A stretch of DNA of 64,000 nucleotides. It comes from Spirosoma aureum. Its GTDB lineage: Bacteria; Bacteroidota; Bacteroidia; Cytophagales; Spirosomataceae. The stretch is from assembly GCF_011604685.1 (NCBI RefSeq), contig NZ_CP050063.1, positions 186,001 to 250,000 on the forward strand, read 5' to 3'. The notes beneath the pieces are model-generated. The model made no database searches. It was given only the letters and a program-made list of their open reading frames with translations, and was not told the origin of the DNA. The number at the start of each line of letters is the position of its first letter. The first letter of the stretch is position 1. The translations under genes were made by a program, and so were the position numbers. Shown here piece by piece: positions 10,518-60,061 of the stretch.

Positions 10518-10541
10518 TGGTTGGAGATTATAGGTTTTAAA

Positions 10542-10632
10542 AGAGGAGTTGGGAGTGAAAAGCAAGGATTATGAATGAAAACGTTTGTTTACTATTCTAC
10601 TCCTTGCTCCTCGCTCCTCGCTCCTATTACTC
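10542..10632 (-). repeat. Heptad-phased fold-back spacer between rpoB and rpoC
   Basis: Plus-strand reading in steps of seven from 10542 gives GAG-ended words (AGAGGAG, TTGGGAG). The same phase at 10598-10625 gives four CTCCT words (TACTCCT, TGCTCCT, then CGCTCCT twice). The two halves are roughly reverse complements, so the mRNA can fold back. Thirteen consecutive units keep the 7-base phase. The function is unknown; the layout matches other spacers in the window. Confidence 0.7.
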
Positions 10633-15133: not shown

Positions 15134-15248
15134 TGTAGTATTTTCTTAATTTGATTGTGATACGATTTGTTAATAGCGCGGGGCGAAGCCCGCTTTTTAG
15201 TGTCGAAAGATGCGGGCTTATGTCATTATGACGAAACCCGCCTTACAG

Positions 15249-16953: not shown

Positions 16954-16963
16954 CGTATTAAAA

Positions 16964-17033
16964 TTTGTGATTTATGACGTCTGATACCTGATTTATTAGT
17001 CACATTCATAAAATCAGACTCATTTATCATGAA
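16964..17033 (-). repeat. Heptad-phased fold-back spacer between nusG and rplK
   Basis: Ten consecutive 7-base units from 16964. The first four on the plus strand end in TGA (TTTGTGA, TTTATGA and so on), a middle pair breaks the rule, and the last four contain the complement TCA (TCATAAA, TCATTTA). It has the same word type and turn as the nusG-secE spacer. No ORF fits. Confidence 0.7.
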
Positions 17034-17104
17034 CCAGGCTGTTTTGGTCATTTGTCCTCTGAGGGAAGCATAGGCTACCTGACCAATTGAAAGCCAATTT
17101 TTGG

Positions 17105-17665
17105 TTAGCTTTCTTTTTCTACTTGTGCGTAACTGAGTTCTACCGGAGTACTCCGGCCAAATATCTTAACAACGACGTTCAATTTCTTCCGGTCGTCGAA
17201 TACTTCTTCCACAGTGCCAATGAAACCGCCAAACGGCCCATCAACAACTTTTACATTTTCACCTTTGAGGTAACCTACTGTTGGCGCTGCGACTTCCTGT
17301 GCTTCTTCCTCCATCCGGCCCAGCATACGATTAACTTCTGACTGCCGTAACGGAACTGGAACTTTGGTCGTTGTGCCCGCCTGCGAATTTCCCAGAAATC
17401 CCAGAACACCTGGCATGTTCAGGATCAGGTCGAGCGCACGGTTATTACCCAAATCGGCCGAAATCATGATATAACCCGGAAAAAACGATTTCTCACGAAC
17501 GCGTTTCTTTCCATTGCGCATTTCATACACCTTCTCCGAAGGAATAAGAACCTGCGGGATGATTTCATCCAACTTTTGCCGGATAATTTCGTTATCGAGA
17601 TAGGATTTGATCTTCTTCTCCTGCCCCGATACCGCCCGAATGACGTACCACTGTATGCCGCTCAT
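17105..17665 (-). CDS. nusG: Transcription termination/antitermination protein NusG
   Basis: RNA polymerase-associated elongation factor linking transcription to Rho or ribosomal S10; 186 residues. The N-terminal NGN domain is seen from WYVIRAVSGQEKKIKSYL to FFPGYIMISADLG. The C-terminal KOW domain begins about residue 130 with GENVKVVDGPFGGFIGTVEEV. No extra domain, so this is the housekeeping NusG rather than a specialised paralogue. It lies 77 bases after secE, a spacer filled with in-phase 7-base words (17677-17743). Confidence 0.98.
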   Translation of the reverse strand: MSGIQWYVIRAVSGQEKKIKSYLDNEIIRQKLDEIIPQVLIPSEKVYEMRNGKKRVREKSFFPGYIMISADLGNNRALDLILNMPGVLGFLGNSQAGTTTKVPVPLRQSEVNRMLGRMEEEAQEVAAPTVGYLKGENVKVVDGPFGGFIGTVEEVFDDRKKLNVVVKIFGRSTPVELSYAQVEKES

Positions 17666-17676
17666 ATTGGTAAAGA

Positions 17677-17743
17677 TTTATGATTGTTGATTTTTGACGT
17701 ATGATTTCTGTCAATCATAAATCAGCAATCCCAAATCATACGT
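17677..17743 (-). repeat. Heptad-phased interleaved inverted repeats between secE and nusG
   Basis: Plus-strand words of seven from 17677 end in TGA four times (TTTATGA, TTGTTGA ...). After one turn unit, words with ATCA or ATCC follow in the same phase up to the secE stop codon. Two perfect pairings are interleaved: 17675-17686 with 17712-17723 (12 bp) and 17697-17707 with 17733-17743 (11 bp). They occur in the order left1-left2-right1-right2, which cannot both form as simple nested hairpins. Confidence 0.75.
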
Positions 17744-17934
17744 TAGAATGACTGATAAAATGCATTCAGTCCGTTCTCAAATACTAAATCAATTAACCCG
17801 ACCAATAGCGCAAAAATCAGCGATGCTACCAATACCAGCGTTGAACTGGACTGCAGATCGCCGAATTTAGGCCAAGTCACGTTATGCTGAACCTCCTCCC
17901 AAGAGGCTTTCAGAAACGATATAAACTTGTCCAT
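17743..17934 (-). CDS. secE: Preprotein translocase subunit SecE
   Basis: Small essential subunit of the SecYEG channel in the inner membrane; 63 residues with one transmembrane helix at about residues 33-53, the minimal single-span form common outside gammaproteobacteria. The amphipathic segment before it contains the family-type ASWEEVQHNVTWPKFGDL (W-P motif). It lies between tRNA-Trp and nusG, as in many bacteria. The stop codon overlaps the last arm of the fold-back repeat downstream. Confidence 0.96.
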   Translation of the reverse strand: MDKFISFLKASWEEVQHNVTWPKFGDLQSSSTLVLVASLIFALLVGLIDLVFENGLNAFYQSF

Positions 17935-31287: not shown

Positions 31288-31291
31288 AAAG

Positions 31292-31343
31292 AATGATGAA
31301 TGATAAATAGTGGCTGATCAATGATCAGCCACTATTTATCATT
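31292..31343 (-). repeat. Heptad-phased perfect palindrome between recQ and purD
   Basis: Words AATGATG, AATGATA and AATAGTG start at 31292 and continue in phase. The stretch 31299-31320 pairs perfectly with 31322-31343 (22 bp, 1-base centre). The right arm overlaps the recQ stop codon. With no T-run after it, it is either an unusual terminator or an RNA end protector. Confidence 0.75.
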
Positions 31344-43193: not shown

Positions 43194-43209
43194 ACGGTAA
43201 AGCAAAATG

Positions 43210-43217
43210 CAAAGGTA
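43210..43217 (-). promoter_or_regulatory. -7 box (TACCTTTG) for purB
   Basis: TAnnTTTG match on the minus strand overlapping the end of palindrome D by two bases. The -33 region would lie inside the palindrome arm. Confidence 0.5.
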
Positions 43218-43283
43218 ACGCCAATAGCATTAGAACCTCCCGAAAGTTCTAATTTTCGGGAGGTTCTAATGCTATTGGCGTTA
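43216..43283. repeat. Perfect palindrome D with a competing inner hairpin
   Basis: 30-bp perfect arms (43216-43245 and 43254-43283) around an 8-base loop. The loop GTTCTAAT (43246-43253) repeats part of the right arm, so the left-arm segment ATTAGAAC can pair with either the loop or the right arm. It lies 7 bases past the stop codon of the 43290-44735 gene and abuts the purB promoter. Confidence 0.8.
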
Positions 43284-43289
43284 GGTCAA

Positions 43290-57996: not shown

Positions 57997-58007
57997 TTTT
58001 TAAACAA

Positions 58008-58028
58008 GTTTTCAGTTTTCGGTTAAGC
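58008..58028 (-). repeat. Heptad words between nuoL and nuoM
   Basis: GTTTTCA, GTTTTCG and GTTAAGC follow in 7-base steps, the same word as in the nuoM-nuoN spacer. Confidence 0.5.
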
Positions 58029-58068
58029 GATAAAATGCAACACCGGAATCTGGATACCGTATATCGTT

Positions 58069-59982: not shown

Positions 59983-59989
59983 GAAATTG

Positions 59990-60059
59990 TTTGACGTTTA
60001 CGGTTTGCAATTACGGCCTACGGTCCTATTCAGCCCGCAAACCGTGAACTGAAAACTTA
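59990..60059 (-). repeat. Heptad-phased fold-back spacer between nuoK and nuoL
   Basis: TTTGACG, TTTACGG and TTTGCAA start at 59990; TTACGGC and CTACGGT follow in phase; the far side has AAACCGT and GAACTGA in the same phase. ACGGTTTGC pairs with GCAAACCGT (9 bp). Confidence 0.6.
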
Positions 60060-60061
60060 TT

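Follow-up and report, generated by a model that had tools for sequence, protein, structure and literature searches.

MacGregor (2015) described direct repeats of the heptamer TAACTGA in Beggiatoaceae, Cyanobacteria, and five Bacteroidetes, in a paper that also cites binding of CspB to heptamer repeats (PMC4679880). The repeats are 7-nt intergenic units lying mostly just upstream of start codons and inside ribosomal protein operons, one set in F. litoralis is reversed and directly follows a stop codon, and the array consists of one fixed word in direct orientation with no predicted structure, related words being rare in the main genome (PMC4679880). The elements that we describe here, which we call repeat-armed hairpins, resemble these repeats in unit length and place but differ from them in that their words vary with locus and species, both complementary arms are present, and other unit lengths occur; TAACTGA is itself one of the words that the AGTNNNN/ACTNNNN type allows (read in another phase, its complement is AGTTATC). 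The G-rich heptamers of Xanthomonas and Nostoc are also intergenic and partly inverted and occur between the same genes in two species with variable length and sequence, but there one word class (GGGAATC, GGGGA(C/T)T) is involved, with proposed quadruplexes (PMC4692102). The words of repeat-armed hairpins are, unlike those, as a rule not G-run words. REPs form short families whose copies are nearly identical, and many are linked to RAYT transposases. REP/BIME palindromes near stop codons have been reported (PMC12306157, PMC3733652). Template switching makes and mends RNA hairpins, and the hairpins so described resemble ours in that perfect stems arise in one step and both arms change together, whereas they lie in RNA genes and ours are intergenic with tandem units inside the arms (PMC8794818). 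In yeast, quasi-palindrome mutations become more frequent with transcription (PMC3820800). Intergenic heptamers near starts, 7-nt slippage, stop-proximal palindromes, and template-switch hairpins are already known; their combination as repeat-armed hairpins, with exchanged words, at fixed operon junctions is one that we did not find described in the open-licence PMC literature.

The element from which we started lies between secE and nusG in the window, that is, the whole stretch of 64,000 nucleotides that was analyzed. The genome measures 8.9 Mb, and its closest named relatives belong to Spirosoma.

17666..17742, minus strand: secE-nusG spacer, 77 nt, message direction from 17742 down to 17666 (from open reading frames and lag-7/fold statistics)
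17743..17934, minus strand: secE, upstream gene, 63 aa (identity from gene order and relatives)
17105..17665, minus strand: nusG, downstream gene, 186 aa

The message-strand sequence of the spacer is CGTATGATTTGGGATTGCTGATTTATGATTGACAGAAATCATACGTCAAAAATCAACAATCATAAATCTTTACCAAT. Its self-match is 0.54 at lag 7 (0.57 from 17674) and 0.49 at lag 14 (0.51), while the remaining lags up to 29 give 0.16-0.40. The best lag-7 segment was equalled by 7 of 20,000 dinucleotide-keeping shuffles (p = 0.00035), the lag-7 fraction by none of 20,000, and an equal score at any lag from 4 to 15 was reached by 0.3% of 4,000 shuffles (p = 0.003). Direct reading of the letters bears out the ten in-phase 7-mers from 17670 that the earlier note had described; all four of its left units end in TGA, but only three of the four right units carry the complement, CAATCCC being the exception. 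The units are TGATTTA-like and CAATCAT-like, and the word TAACTGA is not among them. Tandem Repeats Finder (score 30) did not list the spacer, which marks it as a degenerate array and not one of near-perfect 7-nt tandem copies. In a 50-base scan of the whole window, coding sequence included, the spacer was the highest lag-7 place (0.60); lag 9 reached 0.62 at another place. We set aside the idea of a word-specific family in this genome: three successive GATTNNN units (the last as GATT only) occur at five places in the genome, three of them inside this spacer, and three GTTTTCN units with at most one mismatch at 20 places.

The pairings reported earlier were confirmed: a perfect 12-bp pairing (17675-17686 with 17712-17723) is interleaved with a perfect 11-bp pairing (17697-17707 with 17733-17743), and a third pairs at 11 of 12 positions (17682-17693 with 17719-17730). 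Altogether the spacer holds 17 ungapped pairings of at least 10/12, all in five registers that are equal modulo 7. Because the repeat puts all registers 7 nt apart, interleaved pairings follow from it; a spacer of which one half carries GATT words and the other AATC words is bound to show such a register ladder. A predicted nested hairpin is what explains the strong pairings, with the following parts.

17711..17741, minus strand: 5' arm of the nested hairpin, GATT-type words (minimum free energy structure); outermost pair 1 nt beyond the stop codon of secE
17705..17710, minus strand: terminal loop of the nested hairpin, 6 nt (minimum free energy structure)
17670..17704, minus strand: 3' arm of the nested hairpin, AATC-type words (minimum free energy structure); ends 4 nt before the nusG start codon
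17675..17723, no strand: perfect 12-bp pairing, one register of the 7-step ladder
17697..17743, no strand: perfect 11-bp pairing, interleaved with the 12-bp pairing, same register modulo 7

Folded alone, the spacer gave a nested minimum free energy (MFE) of -19.2 kcal/mol with a z of -3.9 against 300 shuffles; with 121 nt of context, z was only -1.8 and 9 of 200 shuffles folded equally well. The predicted ensemble lies mainly in two registers exactly 7 apart. The outer pair, 1 nt past the secE stop, is stop-proximal in the sense of a stem starting at most 15 nt from the stop, and the 3' arm, ending 4 nt before the nusG start, places 7-nt intergenic units next to a start codon. Of the two arms, the 5' one is richer in G and the 3' one richer in C. 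An intrinsic terminator was considered and rejected: the stem is A+T-rich and is followed by 4 nt and the nusG start, with no G+C-rich stem and T run. Rfam at curated score returned four tRNAs only from the window and no match at the spacer.

The spacer is a member of a class of intergenic hairpins that begin about 1 nt after a stop codon, have a G-richer 5' arm, and carry degenerate short repeats, mostly of 7 nt but also of 8 and 14, as their arms. The further members in the window are as follows.

10518..10626, minus strand: rpoB-rpoC spacer, GGAGCGA words, lag-7 score 17
16954..17104, minus strand: nusG-rplK spacer, a weaker member of the class (lag-7 score 9) next to a conserved block
31288..31341, minus strand: class spacer, lag-7 score 9, perfect 20-bp palindrome with a 1-nt loop
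56429..56517, minus strand: class spacer, lag-7 score 12, AACGGAA words before the downstream start
57997..58068, minus strand: spacer with AACTGAA/AACCGAA words, lag-7 score 9
59983..60061, minus strand: spacer whose arms are of the GTTTTCA...TGCAAAC type, lag-7 score 6, included on visual resemblance to the class

A class of such spacers, said earlier to occur at least ten times in the window, does exist, but ten is too many by our score: six spacers of the window reach a lag-7 score of 9. To count the class more widely, we scored the window and 60 further stretches (1.264 Mb, 434 co-directional spacers) at a threshold lag score of 10; these counts use a codon-scored gene caller that missed secE, so the secE-nusG spacer stands outside the 434 and outside the close-pair set used below. 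At this score there were 12 co-directional spacers of the 434 at lag 7 (0.95 expected), 9 at lag 8 (0.45), and 11 at lag 14 (0.50), with one or two each at lags 4-6, 9-13, and 15 (0.35-1.05 expected). The lag-7 signal thus exceeds that of shuffled controls, the comparison by which the earlier note would have been refuted. Lag 7 was represented in 0 of 104 convergent and 2 of 94 divergent spacers, and repeat-bearing spacers made up 25 of 434 co-directional versus 4 of 198 other spacers, a modest bias (Fisher p = 0.04). An earlier bulk test of mean lag match in co-directional spacers had given z = 3.6 at lag 7, but 5.1 at lag 4, with a gene caller that made strand errors at rpoB-rpoC; local best-segment scores were used thereafter. 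Repeat-bearing spacers gave the better folds: their median z was -5.7 (n = 22), that of 120 sampled other spacers -1.1.

Unit length and words are both flexible. A period-8 hairpin family of the same build, GTGAATGA ... TCACTCAT, occurs in the same genome (L180 11590-11711, L182 2468-2549, L209 7908-7975), and we rejected a strict functional 7-bp phase, since lags 8 and 14 are enriched too and the three closest relatives carry phase-shifting indels of 1-2 nt. Stop codons in every frame were likewise rejected as the purpose of the repeats: by eye, the words GGATTTG, GTTTTCC, and CTCCTCG contain none on either strand. Any trimer repeated four times, sought on both strands of 2.39 Mb comprising the window and related DNA with N runs removed, gave 428 matches at period 7 and 40, 98, 114, 198, 50, and 56 at periods 5, 6, 8, 9, 10, and 14, respectively; the commonest trimers were AGT and its complement ACT (41 each). 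Of 395 Bacteroidia genomes, 229 contain five AGT trimers spaced in steps of 7 nt. In the own genome, AGTNNNN extended to five AGT was found 10 times forward and 20 times reverse, against 0 and 0 for the reversed control. Since that control was also high in many other genomes and the two other Spirosoma genomes in the sample gave one match each, AGT is a preference and not a rule. Lag 7 was again prominent in the three repeat-rich distant genomes sampled, and some spacers of distant genomes have non-complementary repeat words in their two halves (e.g., L164 5543-5607).

Stem position was examined in the repeat-bearing co-directional spacers whose largest stem has at least 12 pairs (n = 24). The stem started within 10 nt of the upstream stop in 19 of them (median 1 nt), while its distance to the next start codon had a median of 17 nt and was at most 10 nt in 8 of the 24. 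Non-repeat spacers with such stems followed the same trend more weakly (in 200 of 326 the stem started no more than 10 nt past the stop, with a median of 6 nt), so the stop-proximal place is not special to the repeat-armed class. G outnumbered C among the paired bases of the 5' arm in all 25 co-directional repeat-bearing spacers and in all 4 of the others; in other co-directional spacers of 50-200 nt (n = 278), G exceeded C in 193 and the order was reversed in 50. The same polarity held for 32 of 34 repeat-bearing spacers at rpoB-rpoC and 12 of 14 at secE-nusG. A hairpin of such build reads alike on both strands, and for this reason polarity does not separate an RNA cause from a DNA cause.

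We compared the same junctions in relatives. At rpoB-rpoC there were 70 distinct spacers, 63 of at least 45 nt, and 34 of these were repeat-bearing (1.7 expected); the corresponding numbers of distinct, long, and repeat-bearing spacers were 79, 38, and 14 (0.5 expected) at secE-nusG, 74, 53, and 5 (1.3 expected) at nusG-rplK, and 73, 46, and 2 (1.6 expected) at rplJ-rplL. Words at rpoB-rpoC and secE-nusG differ by species (AGTCATT, AGGAGTT, AGTTTTC, GGATTTG, TGATTTA), and relatives often have hairpins with unrelated words at the same junction, or none; shape seems to outlast sequence. The length of the secE-nusG spacer falls into two classes, one of at most 20 nt, with three cases at 35-36 nt, and one of 59-112 nt. 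On a 45-locus tree (52 loci were named and 7 dropped because one of three genes was missing from the fetched stretch), at least five changes between long and short are required, and well supported branches make four of these unavoidable for the short group. These changes, and a length of 15 nt at the same junction in several Spirosoma species, contradict the premise that a spacer in the most expressed operon must be constrained. The GATT version is found in our genome, G004, G013, and G002; as the earlier note would have it, the spacer is kept in these close relatives (99, 97, and 92% identity, respectively), but not strictly in phase, since indels of 1-2 nt occur. The spacer of S. endophyticum has mainly the 3' end in common with this version.

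Several other features were observed at these junctions. Between the hairpin and the rpoC start, outside the variable hairpin, most Spirosoma rows (L006-L026) have the conserved stretch CTATAATCTCCAACCA. In the nusG-rplK spacer (16954-17104), a block, CTATGCTTCCCTCAGAGGA, is kept in five relatives beside a variable part and has no Rfam match; it is perhaps a leader for L11/L1 autoregulation. At rplJ-rplL (15134-15248 in the window; also L007, L021, L023, and others), there are G+C-rich paired hairpins of the GCGGACA...TGTCCGC type, which some Spirosoma species have and others lack. In the rpoB-rpoC spacer of G029 (L144), the position that repeat-armed hairpins take in relatives is occupied by a hairpin of 20-bp arms (CCCCCAACCCCCGAAGGGGG). 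The record L028, titled Flavobacterium sp. SUN052, is probably misnamed, because its nusG is 87% identical to the query and it groups with Rudanella in the tree.

Turnover was followed in 23 close genome pairs with 141 orthologous spacers, identity medians being taken for co-directional spacers only. In pairs at 91-98%, median spacer identity was 0.71 at repeat score 10 (n = 6) versus 0.97 at scores below 7 (n = 52; p = 0.0096), and in pairs at 88-91% it was 0.67 (n = 8) versus 0.90 (n = 49; p = 0.015); the rows are non-independent, since the rpoB-rpoC spacer supplies 12 of the 15 repeat-bearing ones and certain genomes enter more than once. Between our genome and G004 (94.7%), the hairpins at rpoB-rpoC and 31288 have been rewritten (identity 0.64 and 0.61), whereas the 56429 spacer is 98% and the secE-nusG spacer 99% identical. 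The perfect palindrome at 31288 is absent from four relatives, including G004. A perfect 30-bp inverted repeat with an 8-nt loop at 43194-43289 is kept in G004 with a compensated change of A.T to C.G, while the same site in G013, G029, and G002 has repeats of at most 9 bp. The 31288 palindrome and the compensated change at 43194 suggest copying of one arm onto the other. A general excess of pair-keeping changes over close pairs was not found in repeat-bearing spacers: such changes made up 222 of 481 changed pairs at repeat score 8 or above versus 2023 of 4112 in other spacers. The rpoB-rpoC rows alone gave 35 of 51, a subset picked post hoc. Joint changes in both arms were seen at 43194 and in single close-pair rows, with none within the secE-nusG spacer and no overall excess.

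Several explanations have to be weighed against one another. A specific H-type pseudoknot of the 12-bp and 11-bp pairings that regulates nusG translation is hard to credit. Its two helices are perfect and recur without change in G004 and G013, and over five homologous sequences 96.2% of cells are paired in this model; the nested fold, however, has about as many paired (94.7%), double-sided pair changes occur in neither model, and the five sequences therefore cannot choose between the two. Helix 2 is shortened in G002 without compensation, the helices scored singly at -9.0 and -11.1 kcal/mol, pseudoknot penalty excluded, do not clearly beat the nested fold, no Rfam match lies there, and the register ladder produces such pairs automatically. 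We prefer the nested hairpin because orthologous junctions have single hairpins in common. An array of protein sites spaced by 7 nt, such as sites on the 3' arm, ahead of the start codon, for a single-strand binding OB-fold protein (ribosomal protein S1 or a cold shock protein, for instance), would fit the arrays that often stop a few nt short of the next start codon and AGT/ACT as the commonest repeated trimer, and Csp, S1, or CsrA have been proposed for the TAACTGA repeats (PMC4679880). Free variation of the words across species and loci, the existence of periods 8 and 14, and the tolerance of 1-2 nt indels nevertheless make such an array quite improbable.

A mobile or dispersed palindromic element of REP or MITE type, inserted after stops and decaying by slippage, would explain the two length classes at secE-nusG and the dispersal of some words. 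The rpoB-rpoC hairpin of G004 matches the rpoB-rpoC junction of G014 at 80% over 68 nt and has shorter matches elsewhere, in G021 (8), G009 (6), and others, in 9 of 36 genomes in all; members of one word family, whose tip is GGCTGACGC...GCGTCAGCC, lie scattered over G021 (8 matches), G009 (6), G014 (3), and others, and many of the dispersed matches (L215-L240, several Spirosoma genomes) are hairpins with GGAGYGA words and the tip GCTGACGC...GCGTCAGC. Slippage alone does not account for this dispersal. In our genome, however, we found no second copy of the secE-nusG hairpin (next best 18 nt, E = 0.049) or of the rpoB-rpoC hairpin (next best E = 0.104), and the Y1_Tnp (RAYT/IS200) family PF01797 had no match there while 5 of 14 control genomes were positive. 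In both respects the secE-nusG hairpin differs from REPs; RAYT mobility of this element is unlikely, no target duplication was noticed on informal inspection, and we regard a mobile origin for the class as improbable. A purely mutational, functionless origin, in which slippage and template switching act in free spacer DNA (possibly above all in operons with strong transcription) and the place after stops is simply where insertions are harmless, deserves more weight, though we think it the less probable outcome. It agrees with the lack of an overall pair-keeping excess and with the gains, losses, and rewriting at secE-nusG and rpoB-rpoC, and work cited in PMC4679880 and PMC4692102 finds an excess of heptanucleotide repeats in many bacteria and puts it down to polymerase slippage. 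Against it stand the concentration at certain junctions (34 of 63 at rpoB-rpoC versus 2 of 46 at rplJ-rplL), the persistence of shape under changed letters, the small number of divergent and convergent cases, and the post hoc 35 of 51 at rpoB-rpoC.

The reading that we prefer, and to which we give about an even chance, is a stop-proximal intercistronic hairpin that is made and rewritten by slippage and template switching and is tolerated or mildly useful in the mRNA. The period, the predicted hairpin, the place after the stop, the polarity, the recurrence with other words, and the fast turnover, mainly at rpoB-rpoC, are what we observed. Replication slippage would copy short units within one arm, and template switching at the quasi-palindrome would copy one arm onto the other; whole words would then change in both arms while the hairpin and its place persist, and the 7-base phase would arise from how the element forms and is rewritten. 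Both arms being degenerate 7-nt tandems, pairing between them is possible in several registers, at steps of 7 nt. If the hairpin is active, it may hinder the terminating ribosome from its predicted position beside the stop codon, block 3'-to-5' decay of the upstream message, and partly hide the next start codon. Among the causes offered in the earlier note, an RNA hairpin together with slippage fits best, whereas selection is not borne out in that pair-keeping changes are not in overall excess; a fixed 7-bp phase as a functional property fails on the periods 8 and 14 in the same genome and the indels in the three closest relatives. With no general pair-keeping excess and a modest direction bias (p = 0.04), we claim place, shape, and turnover, and only propose a function.

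In its widest form, our proposal is that an RNA device is present at operon junctions of Bacteroidia, chiefly those of rpoB-rpoC and secE-nusG, and is defined solely by its architecture, namely a hairpin at the stop codon with tandem-repeat arms, G-rich and then C-rich, whose letters are exchangeable and rewritten in species-level time while place and shape are kept, and which would be invisible to sequence-based RNA families; we advance this tentatively, as a possibility that may well prove wrong. If the elements are neutral, they would be a record of a mutation process, short-unit slippage with arm copying, that rewrites some Bacteroidia spacers far faster than point mutation, and would call for caution in reading such spacers as regulatory or using them in phylogeny. 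If they are selected, they would be an example of an RNA function that is conserved while its sequence is not, located where genes essential for transcription and translation adjoin, and would make it possible to test in nature how stems stay paired through template switching.
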